Source: a virus. Taken from it: DNA of 21,260 nucleotides. Position numbers and translations under genes: made by a program. Of the stretch, positions 1,463 through 21,260 are shown piece after piece (the stretch's first letter is position 1; the number at the start of each line of letters is the position of its first letter). A model generated the notes under the pieces. That model had not been told where the DNA came from, did no database searches, and worked only from the letters and a program-made list of their open reading frames with translations. Where the stretch lies: IMG/VR virus record IMGVR_UViG_3300033233_000179, positions 1 to 21,260 of that record. One strand, given 5' to 3'.

Positions 1463-2167
1463 TTACTTATTATGTGCTTTTTTATACTGACTTTTCTTTT
1501 CTTCCTTCCATTCTTTTTTGAGTAGTTTTAAATTCTTCTTATCTAATTCAGCAGCAAAATATAATTGTAATTCATACGGGGTAAGGTCTCTATTCAAGAG
1601 CTTCTTGCCCCTTATTAGTATCTGTTGAACGATGGGTTTCATTTTTGCTACCATCCATTCCACCAGAGATTTGCCAATAAGAGCCGCAGCAACAGAAGCA
1701 GTAGCAGTGGTGCCAGCAAGAATAACCTGTTCCTTAGGAGGAACAGGAACTGGTCCGAGAAGGGGAACTTCGATGATTGGGATGCCCGTGTCTGGTTTGG
1801 CGAATTCAACTGGGGGGGTTTCAACATTCTTCACCTCATCAGTGGGGGGAGTAGGAACCAAAACTTGTGGTATAGGTGGAATCACAGGAGTATCTGGAAG
1901 ACCCCTAGACTTCTCTTGTTCCGCTTCCTCCTGGGCATTCCTTTCTGCTCTTACTGCCTCATCAAACTCTGCTTGAGTAGGAACACTGAGAGTAGGATAT
2001 TTTATTGAGGTGTCAGTATAACGAACTATCGGCACTTCTAAACTACGAATGAGTGCTTGAGGTGTCTGTTGAACGACTGGTGGATTTATTGTGGGGATGA
2101 TACTGGGACCACCAAGATTATTAATATTTGGAATCCCATTCGCACCAATGTTGGGGATCTCACTCAT
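1463..2167 (-). CDS. Proline-rich virion or membrane-associated protein, function unknown
   Basis: The protein has 234 residues. The first 145 or so are rich in Pro, Ile and Val with many P-rich strings (for example VIPPIPQVLVPTPPT) and one short charged stretch (RAERNAQEEAEQEKSR). A hydrophobic Ala-rich segment (around VILAGTTATASVAAALIG, roughly residues 150-170) follows, then a basic amphipathic tail ending in KKEWKEEKKSQYKK. This pattern suggests an extended rod or tether with one membrane-contacting segment and a positive C-terminus; it is inference. It is the last gene of a four-gene minus-strand group whose other three members carry export signals. The start has an AGG-containing ribosome site (ATAGGTTATAC) six bases upstream, and it begins only 10 nt after the stop of the gene before it. 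Confidence 0.75.
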   Translation of the reverse strand: MSEIPNIGANGIPNINNLGGPSIIPTINPPVVQQTPQALIRSLEVPIVRYTDTSIKYPTLSVPTQAEFDEAVRAERNAQEEAEQEKSRGLPDTPVIPPIPQVLVPTPPTDEVKNVETPPVEFAKPDTGIPIIEVPLLGPVPVPPKEQVILAGTTATASVAAALIGKSLVEWMVAKMKPIVQQILIRGKKLLNRDLTPYELQLYFAAELDKKNLKLLKKEWKEEKKSQYKKAHNK

Positions 2168-2177
2168 TTTGTATAAC

Positions 2178-2783
2178 CTATTTCATTACTGGGGGTTTGC
2201 TTATAACAACTCCATTTCCAGACATAATGTGTCCGTTTGGTGCTGTTGCCATTATATCAGCACATATTTTTCCATAAGGACTTTCTGGGTGATAAAATAC
2301 CCCTGCTCGTATTTGCTCTCCACAAATTCTCAAACGAACAAGTTCAAAATCTAAACGACTTTTTTCATATTCACTATTTTGTCTTAAAATTTCAACTTTT
2401 GCTCTTGCTTTACATATCTCTTGTAGTGATCCATCAAGAGGAAAGTTGAAACCTAAACTCAGACCAGCATTACCACCAAAAGATTGGTATGTTTCTGGGT
2501 CTAAACTTTTATTGCTATTACCAAAAGCAAATGGAGCAATACTCATAGTAGGTCCTTGACAACTCACACCACCACCATAAGTATTCATAGCATAAGGTCC
2601 TTGTAAAACCTGAACTGCCTGATTTGTTACACTACCAGTAGCACTCGCACTCGGTCCAGCAATGTTAGTATTACTGGGTGCTGTTTGTGTTTTTCCCGAT
2701 GATGTCAATAGTAAAATAATTATTGGGTAAATACAGAGGTGGATGTAGTGGTTGATTGTTGCTCGGTAGTTCTGTCTATCCAT
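2178..2783 (-). CDS. Exported protein of unknown function
   Basis: The body of the protein, from about residue 33, starts with TQTAPSNTNIAGPSASATG and continues with QVLQGPYAMNTYGGGVSCQG, a Gly-rich stretch, then a charged helical region (QEICKARAKVEILRQNSEYEKSRLDFELVRLRICGEQI) in the second half. There are four cysteines or so in the mature part, unusual for a cytoplasmic phage protein. A hydrophobic run, IYPIIILLLTSSG, near residues 18-30 looks like a signal-peptide core. The only ATG that keeps it is at 2783, which overlaps the upstream gene by 64 nt and gives an odd, long N-region. A start at ATA/ATT overlapping the upstream TAA (near 2722) would give a short signal peptide and an ATGA-like junction. 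The true start is therefore unsure; the coding region itself is not. Confidence 0.7.
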   Translation of the reverse strand: MDRQNYRATINHYIHLCIYPIIILLLTSSGKTQTAPSNTNIAGPSASATGSVTNQAVQVLQGPYAMNTYGGGVSCQGPTMSIAPFAFGNSNKSLDPETYQSFGGNAGLSLGFNFPLDGSLQEICKARAKVEILRQNSEYEKSRLDFELVRLRICGEQIRAGVFYHPESPYGKICADIMATAPNGHIMSGNGVVISKPPVMK

Positions 2784-3079
2784 GTTTCTTTTGCGACTCC
2801 AGGTCCAAGGTAAGTTTCACTGAATTGAAACAGAGCACCTTGATTCATGATACTATAATTAGAATTCTGGTTTGGTCTACCAGGAATATTAATGTTCGTT
2901 CCAGTTACAGTGTATGATGTGCCAGTTGTATAATCAACTTGGCGAATTACTTCTACGATTTTTGTTGTTGTCTCAGTTGTTGCATTGATAGTGCCTCTCG
3001 TAAAATTAGGCACTACGGTATTTGCTAGGGTAGGACAAGAAAACCCTAGCAGGAATATACCTACTAGGATATGTCTCAT
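2720..3079 (-). CDS. Small exported protein, paralogue of the upstream gene product
   Basis: The 119 residues begin with MRHILVGIFLLGFSCPTLANT, a Sec-type signal peptide with likely cleavage near residue 19-21. The cysteine at position 15 could suggest a lipobox, but LGFSC is a poor match. The mature part is Thr/Ser/Asn-rich with few charges. Two blocks, SYTVTGTNI (residues 55-63) and YSIMNQGALFQFSE (75-88), match SYGVSGTNI and YDINTSGQAFTFSE in the protein of the preceding gene, so the two are paralogues. The start overlaps the stop of that gene as ATGA (3076-3079), which implies coupled translation. I do not recognise the family; low-complexity secreted beta-rich proteins (fibre or curli-like) are one possibility. 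Confidence 0.7.
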   Translation of the reverse strand: MRHILVGIFLLGFSCPTLANTVVPNFTRGTINATTETTTKIVEVIRQVDYTTGTSYTVTGTNINIPGRPNQNSNYSIMNQGALFQFSETYLGPGVAKETWIDRTTEQQSTTTSTSVFTQ

Positions 3080-3537
3080 TTGAATACACTCAACTCAATG
3101 GTTCTTTGAGCAGTAGCAGTAGTTCCAGCACCACCAGCAGTGACGGTAGGAACACCAGTAGGTGATAATGTACCAGCAAGAGAACCTTTATCTCCTGCTA
3201 ACTGAGTAGTAGAGTTGCCATAAAGGTTGGGAGTAGCAATTGCTCCAGCACTAACCGACTGAGTGGTGACAGGAGTATCGGCAGCAGTAAAACTTTCTGA
3301 GAAAGTAAATGCTTGACCTGATGTATTGATGTCATAAGTTCCAGCACCACCTACTCCACCGAATGAAGTTGATTGAATATTTGTTCCCGACACACCATAA
3401 GATGCTCCGATTCTTGTTGATTGTACCGCAGCACCCTGTACGCTAAGTTGAACAGAATCAGTAATCTTAGATGTAATTTCAGTAGCACTTACAGGAATAG
3501 CAAAGAATAACGAAGAGATTAAAAGTAATCTTTTCAT
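3076..3537 (-). CDS. Exported Gly/Thr/Ser-rich protein of unknown function
   Basis: The 153-residue product starts with MKRLLLISSLFFAIPVSATE, a textbook signal peptide with VSA cleavage at residue 18. The mature chain is almost devoid of charge and rich in Gly, Thr, Ser and Ala, as expected for a beta-rich extracellular or virion-surface protein. It shares the blocks SYxVxGTNI and GxxFxFSE with its downstream neighbour. It is the first gene of the minus-strand group and has an exact TATAAATA late promoter 25 nt upstream of its ATG. It stands divergent to psbA with 291 nt between the two start codons. Export signals are rare among T4-type structural genes, so the protein probably acts at or beyond the inner membrane late in infection. 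Confidence 0.75.
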   Translation of the reverse strand: MKRLLLISSLFFAIPVSATEITSKITDSVQLSVQGAAVQSTRIGASYGVSGTNIQSTSFGGVGGAGTYDINTSGQAFTFSESFTAADTPVTTQSVSAGAIATPNLYGNSTTQLAGDKGSLAGTLSPTGVPTVTAGGAGTTATAQRTIELSVFK

Positions 3538-4987: not shown

Positions 4988-5020
4988 AATAAATACTCAT
5001 AAGTCGCAGTAACTTATGAG
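4988..5020 (+). promoter_or_regulatory. Late promoter joined to a hairpin that hides the HNH start codon
   Basis: CTCATAAGT (4996-5004) pairs with ACTTATGAG (5012-5020) as a perfect 9-bp stem with a 7-nt loop. The ATG of the endonuclease gene (5016-5018) lies inside the 3' arm. AATAAATAC (4988-4996) immediately precedes the 5' arm. With T4 geometry, late transcripts would begin near 5001 and lack most of the 5' arm, which would open the start codon. Read-through transcripts from psbA would carry the full hairpin. Confidence 0.6.
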
Positions 5021-5390
5021 ACCTCTCCAGTCGCCTCAGGACTACTTGTTTAATTTACAGACTACAAGTTCATCTGAAGCAAAACGATTATGGAGAAAAC
5101 ACATTAAAGAAAGTTGGGATCATAAATGTGCTTATTGTAATTCAGAAGAAAATCTAACATTAGATCATGTGATTCCACAATGTAAGGGTGGTCTTGATAT
5201 AACAAGAAATATTGTGTCCTGCTGTCATTCTTGTAATCAATCTAAAGGACATGAGCATTGGAAATTGTGGTATGTTCAACAAGACTTTTACCATGAAGAT
5301 AATTTTAATAAAATAGAAGATTTGATGAAACCTCCATTGCCCACAAATCTATATTCTTATCGTCCAAGAAAAAATAATACTACCAATTGA
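5016..5390 (+). CDS. HNH homing-type endonuclease beside psbA
   Basis: The 124-residue protein carries a compact HNH domain at residues 38-80: CAYC, then LTLDHVIP with Asp50-His51, Asn65 in TRNIVSCC, and CHSC, followed by NQSKG. The two CxxC pairs should hold a structural zinc and His51 is the expected catalytic general base. The first 35 residues contain a helical, basic segment (EAKRLWRKHIKESW), the rest of the C-terminus is probably DNA-contacting. A free-standing endonuclease (F-CphI) is known next to psbA in cyanophage S-PM2, where it targets the psbA intron insertion site. Here psbA is intron-free, so this enzyme may be a stand-alone homing gene. Whether it is an F-CphI homologue cannot be judged without comparison. 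Its start codon is inside a hairpin. Confidence 0.9.
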   Translation: MRPLQSPQDYLFNLQTTSSSEAKRLWRKHIKESWDHKCAYCNSEENLTLDHVIPQCKGGLDITRNIVSCCHSCNQSKGHEHWKLWYVQQDFYHEDNFNKIEDLMKPPLPTNLYSYRPRKNNTTN

Positions 5391-18091: not shown

Positions 18092-18571
18092 TTATGTTCC
18101 TTTAATTTTTTCTGCCGACCTTACAGATTGTTGTCTTTTATCTACGAATTTTTCTGTTGGAAGATTGACTAATCCTTTCCATTCATCGTCTGGAATGAAA
18201 TAAGGTATTCCTTGAACTCCAGAAAAAAGATATCTGCGAAGTGTTTGAGGAGGAACTGCAAATCCAGATTGTCCTGATTTATTTAGCAAGTCATTGGCAA
18301 TTTCATCTCTCGAATCTGGACTTACATAATGTAAATTGCATCCCAAGAATCCATTTGCATACATTTCCATAACAAAAACTAAAGGAAATTTATCGTGACC
18401 CTCAAAAGAGTATTTTGGAGCATAAGAAAAAAGATATAAATTTCCGGGAATAAATCCCTTTGGACCCTTGAACGTTCGAGATTGAAGTTCAGTAATTAAT
18501 TGATTTATGTACCAATCGTTTTTTTGTGGTATTTTTCCTGCTTTTTTTTGTATTGATTCGAAAATATTCAA
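18092..18571 (-). CDS. Conserved structural or packaging protein of unknown function
   Basis: The 159-residue product has a NDWYINQLITELQSRT N-terminal segment, then PGNLYLFSYAPKYSFEGHDKFPLVFVMEMYANGFLGCNLHYVSPDSR, a strand-rich block found in related marine phage proteins, and RRYLFSGVQGIPYFIPDDEW. I recall proteins with the FPLV-GFLG-NLHY pattern annotated as DNA end protectors or structural proteins, but the assignment is not firm. The position next to gene 4 would fit T4 gene 2 (DNA end protector), which precedes gene 4 in T4. Its start overlaps the gene 4 stop as ATGA. Confidence 0.75.
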   Translation of the reverse strand: MNIFESIQKKAGKIPQKNDWYINQLITELQSRTFKGPKGFIPGNLYLFSYAPKYSFEGHDKFPLVFVMEMYANGFLGCNLHYVSPDSRDEIANDLLNKSGQSGFAVPPQTLRRYLFSGVQGIPYFIPDDEWKGLVNLPTEKFVDKRQQSVRSAEKIKGT

Positions 18572-19005
18572 ATTCCTAACTCCTTTTCTGTCATAATTCT
18601 AAACTCAAATAAATTATCGGAACAAAACTCTTTTGCTGCTTGCCATTTTGCTTGATTTTTCACATAAGTAAGAGTTTCATAAATTAATGTTTTATTTGAT
18701 TTTCCTTTTTTTCTGACAGGTTCTTGCGTCTCCTTTAAAGGTTTGATTTCTATAATTGCTTTTCTAATTTTTCCATCTTTGCCAAGATACTTGATGTAAA
18801 AATCAGGAAAGTATCTCCTAACTTTTTTTGTTGTTGGATCAAAATATTTAATCTGTATTTCTTCTGATGCCCACTCCAAAACATTTTCATTTAAATCTGC
18901 ATATTTTGCAAACTTTCGTTCCCAAAGACTTCTGCAAATGATATTATTTGAATCACCTTTGTATTTTTTTGGATTAGTTGGGTTATACTTTGTAGTATAA
19001 GCCAT
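18568..19005 (-). CDS. 4: Head completion protein gp4
   Basis: The 145-residue product starts with KYNPTNPKKYKGDSNNIICRSLWERKFAKYAD, the hallmark of T4 gp4, then WASEEIQIKYFDPTTKKVRRYFPDFYIKYLG and IEIKPLKE. The D (in FPDFYI) and the E-I-K are arranged as in a PD-(D/E)XK nuclease, consistent with reported views of gp4 as a head completion nuclease. It acts after DNA packaging, before tail joining. Length matches T4 (150). It is the first gene of the minus-strand unit and is divergent to gene 54. Confidence 0.93.
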   Translation of the reverse strand: MAYTTKYNPTNPKKYKGDSNNIICRSLWERKFAKYADLNENVLEWASEEIQIKYFDPTTKKVRRYFPDFYIKYLGKDGKIRKAIIEIKPLKETQEPVRKKGKSNKTLIYETLTYVKNQAKWQAAKEFCSDNLFEFRIMTEKELGI

Positions 19006-19039: not shown

Positions 19040-19795
19040 GTGGCACTATTAGGGAGCGAAATTACTTATTCTATTGAAACGATTAAAGGTATCTTTTCAA
19101 AAATATCGGTTGATAATTTATATCAAGTACGATTTACTTCTGCAAATTATGGCAATTGGTTGAAGGGTGAAGACGAAAAACTTACTGGCAAGACTAGAAA
19201 TGAAGGATTTTATATGTTTGAAAAAGTTGGGTTATTATGCACTGATGCAGAATTGCCAGCAACAAGCTATGAAGCAACTCAGGTATTTGGTGATCGACAG
19301 GGATTGACTGAGATGTTTCCAACACGTAGAATTTACCCCCCACTCAATTTGACTTTTTATGTAGATTCAAATCATGTTGTAATTAAGATGTTTGAGATGT
19401 GGATGAATTTCATAAATCCAATTAATTCAATTAAAAAAATGCATAATACTTATGGTAGAATGAGATATCCGGATACTTATAAAGACAACATTGAGATAAT
19501 TAAATTTGAAAAAGATGCTGGACTGTCAAGATCATTCTTGACATCTGGAGGAAACCGAACTGTAGGTAACACATCAGAATTGAGATATAAATCGCCTATG
19601 ATAAGGTATCATCTTACTAATTGTTGGCCGATGAATATGTCACAAATGCCTGTATCTTATGGTACAGCAAACATTCTTAAGGTGTCAGTTACATTTCAAT
19701 ATGATAGATATTATGTCTTTGAATCCAATCCAGAGGATGGTAGTGTAGAGTATTTGTTTAATGAAAAGAACCTCCTACAAGAACCTAATAAATAA
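19040..19795 (+). CDS. 54: Baseplate tail tube initiator gp54
   Basis: The 251-residue protein starts at GTG 19040 (MALLGSEITYSIETIKGIF). It contains GLLCTDAELPATSYEATQVF, RRIYPPLNLTFYVD and the tail-tube-like VSVTFQYDRYYV close to the C-terminus, so a tail tube fold is expected. gp54 binds to gp48 at the baseplate top and starts tube growth. The GTG is the only reasonable start; ATG codons come later and would cut conserved residues. Its late promoter lies 24 nt upstream. Confidence 0.85.
   Translation: MALLGSEITYSIETIKGIFSKISVDNLYQVRFTSANYGNWLKGEDEKLTGKTRNEGFYMFEKVGLLCTDAELPATSYEATQVFGDRQGLTEMFPTRRIYPPLNLTFYVDSNHVVIKMFEMWMNFINPINSIKKMHNTYGRMRYPDTYKDNIEIIKFEKDAGLSRSFLTSGGNRTVGNTSELRYKSPMIRYHLTNCWPMNMSQMPVSYGTANILKVSVTFQYDRYYVFESNPEDGSVEYLFNEKNLLQEPNK
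19787..19794 (+). promoter_or_regulatory. Candidate late promoter before gene 26
   Basis: AATAAATA followed by A overlaps the end of gene 54 and stands 25 nt upstream of the ATG at 19820. Confidence 0.45.
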
Positions 19796-19819: not shown

Positions 19820-20548
19820 ATGACTTTACCAGCAATCACAACTCCAACATACGAACTGATTTTACCATCGAATGAAAAGAAAATTAAATACCGCCCATTT
19901 CTGGTTAGAGAAGAAAAAATATTAATTCTTGCTTTACAATCTCAAGATAATGCTCAAATTACAAATGCAGTAAAACAAGTTCTTAAAAGTTGTCTTGTCA
20001 CAAGAGGAGTTAATGTAGATAAATTACCTACATTTGATATTGAATACTTATTTTTAAACATTCGTGCAAAATCTATTGGGGAATCCATTAAGATTGTAAT
20101 TACATGTGCAGACGATGGAGAAACTGAAGTTCCTGTAACTATTTTTGTTGATGAAATTCAAGTTAAAAAAAATAAAGATCATAAGAATGACATTGTTTTA
20201 GATGATAAAACTTTGCGTATGAAGTATCCATCTTTAGAAGAATTTATAGAATCAAATTTTGAAGTTGATGATAAATTAACCCCTGAAGAGAAGGTAGATC
20301 TTACATTAAAACCTGTTGCAAATTGTTTAGAAATGCTCTTTAATGAAGAGGATGCTTGGGATTTTTCAAGTTATAGTGAAAAGGAAAAAATTAATTTTTT
20401 GGGAAAACTTACTTCAAAGCAATATAAGGAAGTGGAACAGTTTTTTGCAACTATGCCAAAACTTTCTCACGAATTTATTGTTGAGAATCCAAAAACTGGT
20501 ATTAAAAATCCTGTCGTTTTGGAGGGATTGAAGGATTTTTTCGCTTAA
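19820..20548 (+). CDS. 26: Baseplate hub assembly protein gp26
   Basis: The 242-residue protein begins MTLPAITTPTYELILPSNEK, followed by the T4_baseplate (gp26) pattern YRPFLVREEKILILALQSQD and KLPTFDIEYLFLNIRAKSIGE. Three quarters along, DAWDFSSYSEKEKINFLGKL and FFATMPKLSHEF follow. gp26 acts in hub assembly and plays a chaperone-like role with the next gene product. The C-terminus ends LKDFFA at TAA 20546-20548; a slippery sequence and a long stem stand exactly at that point, so part of the ribosomes probably enter the -1 frame. Confidence 0.9.
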   Translation: MTLPAITTPTYELILPSNEKKIKYRPFLVREEKILILALQSQDNAQITNAVKQVLKSCLVTRGVNVDKLPTFDIEYLFLNIRAKSIGESIKIVITCADDGETEVPVTIFVDEIQVKKNKDHKNDIVLDDKTLRMKYPSLEEFIESNFEVDDKLTPEEKVDLTLKPVANCLEMLFNEEDAWDFSSYSEKEKINFLGKLTSKQYKEVEQFFATMPKLSHEFIVENPKTGIKNPVVLEGLKDFFA

Positions 20549-20607
20549 GTATTGCACGAGAGGACCTTGAATCTTATTACAGAATTAATTTTGCTCTCGT
20601 GCAATAC
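20536..20607 (+). promoter_or_regulatory. Probable -1 ribosomal frameshift signal
   Basis: The last codons of gene 26 read GAT TTT TTC GCT TAA, so T TTT TTC (20536-20542) is a perfect X XXY YYZ slippery heptamer in the reading frame. After a 6-nt spacer, which holds the zero-frame stop, GTATTGCACGAGAG (20549-20562) pairs perfectly with CTCTCGTGCAATAC (20594-20607): 14 bp with a 31-nt loop. The -1 frame stays open for 60 codons behind the slip. No start codon fits a stand-alone gene there. Confidence 0.8.
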
Positions 20608-20724
20608 CATAAATACAGTTTAAGTGAAATTGAAAACATGCTTCCTTGGGAACGCGAAATTTACTTGGCATTATTACAAAATTACTTAGAGGAAGATAAG
20701 CAAAGACACGCAAATGCCCGCTAA
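20542..20724 (+). CDS. -1 frame extension of gp26 (possible gp51-like tail chaperone domain)
   Basis: After the slip, the frame reads RLSIAREDLESYYRINFALV, then QYHKYSLSEIENMLPWEREI, and YLALLQNYLEEDKQRHANAR, stopping at 20722-20724. The predicted fusion with gp26 would have 302 residues or so. No ATG occurs before residue 33 of the extension, and the only alternative starts are ATT 20551 and GTG 20599, neither with a ribosome site. SLSEIENMLPWEREI resembles the (M)TPREI-like helix found in T domains of lambda gpG-T type tail chaperones. In cyanophage genomes a short gene at this position has been called gene 51; T4 gp51 is much longer, so I leave the name open. Confidence 0.7.
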   Translation, partial: RLSIAREDLESYYRINFALVQYHKYSLSEIENMLPWEREIYLALLQNYLEEDKQRHANAR

Positions 20725-21260
20725 TACCCTAGAAAAAAAGATTTCAATTGATAGTTTTTTTCAGAATCTTGATGAGATTTCTGGGGAATTGGATCGTGTT
20801 GATAAAAAAACAGATCAAGCTTTACAGGAAGTTAAATCCTCATCAATGAAAGCATTTTCAAATGAAAATTACTTTGAATCTCTGTTGAAGTCTCTTACCG
20901 AGCAAGAAGAGATTGTTCAAAAAGTTTCCTCAGAAAATCAACAACAAAATACGACAATTAATAATTTAACAAATGTTGTAAATCAAGAAGGAGATACAGT
21001 AAAACAGACAATTGTTAATCAAAATCAAATTACGAATCAAATTAGTGAAGTTGGAGATAGAGTTAAAAGTCTAGAAAAATCTGGAGAGAAAGTTGTTGAT
21101 CAAAATCAAATTACGAATCAAATTAGTGAAGTTGGAGATACAGTAAAACAGACAATTGTTAATCAAAATCAAATTACGAATCAAATTAGTGAAGTTGGAG
21201 ATAGAGTTAAAAGTCTAGAAAAATCTGGAGAGAAAGTTGTTGATCAAAATCAAATTACGA
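20714..21260 (+). CDS. N-terminal part of a large coiled-coil tail protein (incomplete)
   Basis: An open frame starts at ATG 20714, overlapping the stop of the preceding frame, and is still open at the window end (182 codons). The first 85 residues (MPANTLEKKISIDSFFQNLD, SGELDRVDKKTDQALQEVKS) are helical and polar. From about residue 93 it consists of 48-residue repeats (NQNQITNQISEVGDRVKSLE and EKVVDQNQITNQISEVGDTV) with hydrophobic residues spaced as in a coiled coil. Location after genes 54-26 suggests a tape-measure or baseplate hub protein (T4 gene 29 is the equivalent by position), but the repeats could also be a different structural protein. 3' end lies outside. Confidence 0.75.
   Translation, partial: MPANTLEKKISIDSFFQNLDEISGELDRVDKKTDQALQEVKSSSMKAFSNENYFESLLKSLTEQEEIVQKVSSENQQQNTTINNLTNVVNQEGDTVKQTIVNQNQITNQISEVGDRVKSLEKSGEKVVDQNQITNQISEVGDTVKQTIVNQNQITNQISEVGDRVKSLEKSGEKVVDQNQIT
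20990..21260 (+). repeat. Tandem 144-bp repeats in the open frame at the window end
   Basis: The DNA from 20990 repeats with a 144-bp period (second unit from 21134) without a visible mismatch up to the end. Inside each period, the block CAAAATCAAATTACGAATCA recurs after 81 and 63 bp, giving two sub-units of 27 and 21 codons. The near-perfect identity means recent duplication or gene conversion. Confidence 0.95.

Follow-up and report, generated by a model that had tools for sequence, protein, structure and literature searches.

The gp26 Gene and Its Junction With the -1 Frame

The window analyzed here is a 21,260-base virus record (IMG/VR record IMGVR_UViG_3300033233_000179, positions 1 to 21,260) with the gene set of a T4-type cyanophage, including psbA, speD, thyX, phoH, gp32 and tail genes; its source is a marine phage of T4 type and, more narrowly, of Kyanoviridae type. 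Near the end of the window, a homolog of the T4 gene for gp26 closes with a slippery heptamer, a stop codon and a stem, beyond which an open -1 frame encodes a homolog of T4 gp51. Judging from sequence comparison, this junction very probably directs -1 programmed ribosomal frameshifting (-1 PRF) in a tail assembly chaperone (TAC) gene, which would yield a short gp26 and a long gp26-gp51 fusion as a TAC pair. Its features, including an upstream Shine-Dalgarno (SD)-like element, are as follows:

19820..20548, plus strand: gp26 homolog, putative TAC short form, 242 amino acids (PF12322, E = 2e-64; phrog_150 "baseplate hub," E = 3e-67)
20521..20527, plus strand: SD-like element GGAGGGA, 8 nucleotides 5' of the heptamer, putative frameshift stimulator (codon choice, anti-SD pairing)
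20536..20542, plus strand: slippery heptamer T_TTT_TTC in the zero frame (sequence; 115 of 115 homologous junctions)
20543-20548, plus strand: spacer GCTTAA, 6 nucleotides, including the stop (sequence)
20546..20548, plus strand: zero-frame stop TAA, end of the short form (sequence)
20549..20562, plus strand: 5' arm of the downstream stem, GTATTGCACGAGAG (folding, clade alignment)
20594..20607, plus strand: 3' arm of the downstream stem, CTCTCGTGCAATAC (folding, clade alignment)
20542..20724, plus strand: -1 frame extension, 60 amino acids, gp51 homolog by sequence, without a start of its own (phrog_634, E = 3e-26; substitution ratios)

The zero frame of gp26 ends in GAT TTT TTC GCT TAA; the -1 frame has CGC at 20542 as its first codon and runs for 60 codons to a TAA at 20722-20724, so that the chain across the junction would read KDFFRLSI..., and the predicted gp26-gp51 fusion has 301 amino acids. 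The first start-like codons in the -1 frame of the window are a GTG at codon 20 and an ATG at codon 33, both within conserved sequence. An earlier sequence-only reading had pointed out the zero-frame heptamer, the 6-nucleotide spacer with its stop (20536-20548), and the 60-codon open frame lacking a good start; all of these can be read directly in the sequence. TTTTTTC occurs in 10 copies on the plus strand of the window, so the heptamer alone is not rare.

The two arms downstream of the stop form a perfect 14-bp stem with a 31-nucleotide loop, at -25.6 kcal/mol (z = -5.8); none of 200 dinucleotide shuffles was equally stable. The perfect stem claimed by the sequence-only reading thus holds for the window, but not for its relatives in the same clade: within the window clade (14 sequences) the stem is nearly invariant, and the other 13 members are mismatched at alignment pair 22-64, where both bases differ in the window and form a C-G pair that makes the stem perfect and removes an ATG. 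The perfect 14-bp stem is therefore special to this contig. Throughout the clade, the codons of the stem arms are almost without synonymous change; those of the loop do change.

Conservation of the Junction Signal

The comparison covered 115 junctions, 96 of them from IMG/VR and the other 19 from the window or from named phages; the named phages comprise Kyanoviridae, Pelagibacter phages, Vibrio phage nt-1, Pseudomonas phage pf16, Agrobacterium phage OLIVR5, Sinorhizobium phage phiM9, Caulobacter phage Cr30 and Stenotrophomonas phage Bhz51. T_TTT_TT[C/T/G] was present at all 115 junctions, with C as the final base in 110, and it lay exactly 3 nucleotides upstream of the stop in 112; the -1 frame was open in every case. 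Two additional heptamers, outside this set, were found in the Aeromonas phages AsFcp_1 and CC2. The codon for Phe240, the first residue of the Phe pair, was invariably TTT (115 of 115), whereas both TTT and TTC occur in other conserved Phe columns, and only three of 89 Phe-Phe pairs elsewhere in gp26 are spelled TTT TTC. Codon usage gives T_TTT a chance of approximately 0.46 per site; the agreement of all 90 clusters is far beyond chance, and this estimate holds even if only a fraction of the clusters are independent. As a separate observation, gp26 relatives in three Ackermannviridae-type phages (L130, L131 and L133) carry CTTTTTG or GTTTTTC, one of them without a clear form of either, and their -1 frame open reading frame (ORF) begins at or near the stop, with TAATG in two; in these relatives a less efficient slip, or else reinitiation, may be at work.

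The SD-like element GGAGGGA is maintained by synonymous codon choice: the Glu235 codon that forms it is GAG in 71 of the 84 clusters that have Glu at this position, compared to 30% GAG elsewhere in gp26, and pairing with the anti-SD sequence is predicted at -7.8 kcal/mol, compared to -5.2 kcal/mol in synonymous shuffles (p = 2e-14). The element is retained in phages without any ATG, and where an ATG exists, the element is too distant from it; since it persists even without a following start codon, it is not simply the ribosome-binding site of gp51. In dnaX, an element of this kind is known to stimulate -1 shifting.

Downstream of the stop, 65 other cyanophage junctions, which make up the main clade, have a different hairpin that begins at the same place as the stem of the window clade; its 10 pairs are 87% formed, and the covariation of this helix exceeds that of all 500 shuffles, with UA, AU and GC occurring at one pair. 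Folding energies fell below z = -2 in 46 of 89 clusters, compared to 10.6% of control windows. The alignment of many junctions that the sequence-only reading had proposed as a check accordingly bore out the heptamer and the open frame throughout, and the stem in part. A universal hairpin was considered and rejected; RNAalifold on the 65-sequence set returned only four pairs, and the 10-bp helix named above passes the shuffle control.

The -1 Frame Extension as a gp51 Homolog

The 60-residue extension matches phrog_634, "baseplate hub assembly catalyst" (E = 3e-26), and sequence resembling it occurs in 1,263 phage records, all of the matches listed being from T4-type phages; a Pfam search with the extension alone returned no family. 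By these matches the extension is a homolog of gp51 and not a new domain, and the "tail-chaperone-like" extension of the sequence-only reading keeps its link to chaperones but turns out to correspond to an already named T4 protein. In public records, gp51 is either overlooked or entered as a gene of its own, with starts that vary; in every heptamer-type phage, it lies in the -1 frame and is open from the heptamer onward.

Over the stretch that begins at the heptamer and ends at the window clade's first ATG, the -1 frame has a ratio of nonsynonymous to synonymous substitution rates (dN/dS) of 0.12, compared to approximately 1.3 in the other two frames; after the ATG, the -1 frame ratio is 0.18. 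At 21 loci the first 15 codons of the -1 frame contain no ATG, GTG or TTG. To judge from these ratios, purifying selection acts on the -1 frame upstream of any possible ATG, and this frame is very likely translated from the heptamer onward. An independent gp51 gene within the window was considered separately and rejected, as there is no start and selection begins at the heptamer.

Probable Frameshift and Gene Pair in T4-Type Phages

T4 genes 26 and 51 are separate and divergent. Both proteins match a profile made from 19 predicted fusions: T4 gp26 covers positions 11-238, stopping at the shift point, and T4 gp51 covers positions 75-282, crossing the shift point in frame. Pfam assigns both proteins to PF12322. 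On the strength of these alignments, T4 gp26 and gp51 are both homologs of the predicted fusion. In the T4-type gp26 genes that were read, the heptamer is absent, the -1 frame is closed, and the Phe pair, where kept, is spelled TTC TTT. A search of 16 genomes for PF12322 gave a single gene in each of the 12 named heptamer-type phages and two in each of the four T4-type phages; the window virus, as a 21-kb fragment, is excluded from this count. The sequence-only reading had named a separate, ATG-started gene with neither heptamer nor stem as the arrangement that would speak against it; this arrangement occurs in the T4 clade only, and there an in-frame long paralog replaces the shift. The annotation of T4 gene 26 also includes 26', an internal product in the same frame (L022, 423-710).

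In a maximum-likelihood tree calculated without an outgroup, T4-type gp26 and T4-type gp51 each form one clade, a pattern compatible with one duplication event having taken the place of the frameshift in T4-types, the tree being unrooted. The three-element signal (SD-like element, T_TTT_TTY and hairpin) is probably ancestral for the hub or tail chaperone pair of the T4 superfamily, with T4 genes 26 and 51 as resolved duplicates; as the tree has no outgroup, the ancestral state of the frameshift is our inference. If this is correct, the "catalyst" gp51, long a puzzle, would represent the long form of a GT-type pair, and no free protein would correspond to the separate gp51 genes that many cyanophage records list. 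Marine T4-type phages, and several further lineages of the T4 type, carry the frameshift signal as a rule; the T4 state is accompanied by a second long gene that is read in frame. Annotations that give cyanophage gp51 a gene of its own, with a start that is trimmed or invented, are thus probably wrong in many cases. With its two genes, the T4 pair is well suited to testing whether contractile tails require a fixed ratio of short to long form.

Proposed Mechanism and Alternative Explanations

The sequences themselves show the elements of the junction, their conservation, the frame, the selection on it and the homologies; the occurrence of the shift, its rate and its role in assembly are inferred. 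Most ribosomes would end gp26 at 20548 and release the 242-residue short form; some would slip back by one base on T_TTT_TTC, bypass the stop in the -1 frame, and produce the 301-residue gp26-gp51 fusion, helped by the upstream GGAGGGA element and the downstream stem. If the pair works like lambda G/GT, the tape-measure protein would be coated by the short form, the gp51 tail of the less abundant long form would bring in tube or hub subunits, and both forms would leave before the virion is completed; in the T4 clade, the two forms would come from the paralogous genes 26 and 51 instead. U_UUU_UUC is a working shift motif in Escherichia coli (PMC4066793). The AlphaFold2 model of gp26 has a predicted local distance difference test score of 88, and VIA-align placed the HK97 TAC (2OB9) first among its structural neighbors (Z = 8.0, root-mean-square deviation 4.1, 84 residues), followed by 3FGX and YqbN. 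The -1 PRF reading is favored because the heptamer is universal and accompanied by an SD-like element and a conserved hairpin, the -1 frame is constant and under selection before any ATG, and the N-terminal fold may be TAC-like; in this respect, the claim of the sequence-only reading that gp26 is made in a short and an extended form, in the manner of lambda G/GT, is supported by the comparative data.

As a caveat, several observations weigh against this reading. The frameshift product has so far not been seen in any of the phages compared; in 89 of 115 relatives, the first 15 codons of the -1 frame contain an ATG or were not scorable, and a separately started gp51 would be possible there. About half of the clusters fold no better than shuffles at z = -2, so that the stem is not universal, and covariation in the stem of the window clade is uninformative, as its pairs hardly vary. 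The Z score of 8 for the HK97 TAC is borderline, and Foldseek also ranks this protein first, weakly (E = 1.1); the model of T4-type gp51, which is thin in the C-terminal 45 residues, has no TAC neighbor above Z = 5.

The same junction could in principle express gp51 as a separate gene by termination and reinitiation at the gp26 stop (translational coupling), with the heptamer being incidental. An ATG overlaps the gp26 stop in nt-1, Cr30, phiM9 and Bhz51, many cyanophages have one three codons into the extension, records annotate gp51 as its own coding sequence, and most public annotations imply a separate gene; yet in the window the first ATG is codon 33, and at 21 loci nothing start-like occurs among the first 15 codons, although the sequence there is under strong purifying selection. 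Moreover, the heptamer is conserved and the ATG is not, the SD-like element is kept in phages without an ATG and is too far from the ATG where one is present, and T4 gp51 carries a gp26-like body, in frame, within one chain; reinitiation is therefore considered very unlikely. Less likely still is slippage of RNA polymerase on the T6 run, which would generate -1 frame mRNAs and the same fusion without a ribosomal shift: a run of six T is indeed present, and some genes are known to be expressed by way of transcriptional slippage (cases reviewed in PMC5009743), but the run consists of only six T, usually followed by C, the SD-like element and 3' hairpin, both of which act on ribosomes, are kept, and the conservation fits an in-frame X_XXY_YYZ down to its zero-frame phase, for which polymerase slippage would have no need. 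The frame break also resembles a single-base indel, as expected if the -1 frame belonged to a fusion gene broken by decay or sequencing error; this explanation has hardly any probability left, since the identical break occurs at the same codon in 115 loci from isolates and metagenomes of several phage families, selection acts on the -1 frame, and independent isolate genomes such as those of P-SSM2 and S-PM2 contradict it.

Gene Neighborhood

The gp26-gp51 junction is flanked by two further genes:

19040..19795, plus strand: tail tube-type protein gene directly 5' of gp26, in a T4 gp54-like position (PF23849 Phage_TTP_2, E = 9e-17)
20714..21260, plus strand: start of a repetitive, coiled-coil-like ORF that continues beyond the end of the window (phrog_4704 tape measure, E = 3e-4)

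A tail-tube gene upstream is the usual order for a TAC gene. The gene order in the window places a tube protein upstream of gp26 and, downstream, a coiled-coil ORF that exceeds the window and is only weakly tape-measure-like. The counterpart of the tube-type gene is labeled "baseplate tail tube initiator gp54" in Vibrio phage nt-1 and Aeromonas phage CC2. The downstream ORF may tentatively be regarded as a candidate tape-measure gene; a homologous repetitive, coiled-coil-like ORF occurs in one of the compared sequences (L001, 2395-3726), and a PHROGs search with the ORF after gp51 in five relatives gave no solid tape-measure match. This ORF contains near-identical repeats, in units of 84 bases in L001 and 144 bases in the window, and their number may determine tail length.

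Elsewhere in the window, an HNH endonuclease ORF (5016-5390; PF14279, E = 3e-11) lies directly 3' of psbA and presumably resembles the homing endonuclease that adjoins psbA in some cyanophages. Upstream of psbA, a run of minus-strand ORFs (1463-3537) encodes proteins of 234, 201, 119 and 153 amino acids; a Pfam search with the 201-residue protein gave no match. A TnsA-like endonuclease N-terminal domain (18568-19005, minus strand; PF08722, E = 5e-22) occupies the position labeled head closure (gp4) in P-SSM2.

Comparison With Known Systems

The sequence-only reading was not aware of frameshifting being described for T4-type gp26; this novelty claim was too strong, given the prior work on T4-like TAC genes that is reported in citing papers. 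As cited there, TAC genes of T4-like phages were identified by Vladimirov, Gautam and Davidson (2022; Virology 566:9-15), and some T4-likes have a short gene plus a separate long fusion gene (PMC10885494); poly-T slippery signals in T4-like TAC-N genes are likewise described as known (PMC12846349). The role of T4-like gp26 and gp51 as TACs is apparently already published. An earlier review had described the G-T frameshift as conserved in long-tailed phages, with T4 excepted (2016; PMC5009743). A literature search found no description of the signal in cyanophages, with Vladimirov et al. (2022) represented through citing papers only, and none in the searchable literature of the SD-like element, the hairpin covariation, or the split between one-gene and two-gene phages.

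In lambda, the tape-measure protein is chaperoned by gpG together with gpGT, a less abundant frameshift product, and neither of the two is retained in the virion (Xu, Hendrix and Duda, 2004; reviewed in PMC5009743). The likeness to this system lies in a -1 frame that encodes a conserved segment under selection (dN/dS 0.12 and 0.18; phrog_634) and possibly in the N-terminal fold of gp26, which is nearest to the HK97 TAC at a borderline score; the gp26 system differs in that no sequence similarity to lambda G/GT was found, the T_TTT_TTC heptamer stands 3 nucleotides before the stop with almost no overlap of the frames, and the tail is of the contractile T4 type. T4 gp26 and gp51 have been classified as chaperones of hub assembly, with gp51 missing from the particle (PMC3004832). 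By sequence they are homologous to the gp26 of the window and to the predicted long form, respectively (PF12322, phrog_150, phrog_634); in contrast to the single gene with its putative frameshift, they are separate, divergent genes without a heptamer and with a closed -1 frame.

The -1 PRF signal of dnaX consists of an upstream SD-like element, a heptamer, and a downstream stem-loop. All three elements of this E. coli signal are found here in the same order; the gp26 signal differs from it in having a U-type instead of an A-type heptamer and a stop 3 nucleotides after the heptamer, and the product of the shift would be longer, not shorter. The TAC genes of Vandenendeviridae and Andersonviridae use -1 PRF with a GTTTTT motif (PMC12846349); they share with the gp26 locus a myovirus setting, a -1 PRF site (here predicted) at the end of the short TAC gene, a conserved T-rich motif, and a -1 frame without premature stop, and they differ in belonging to other phage families and in their slippery motif.
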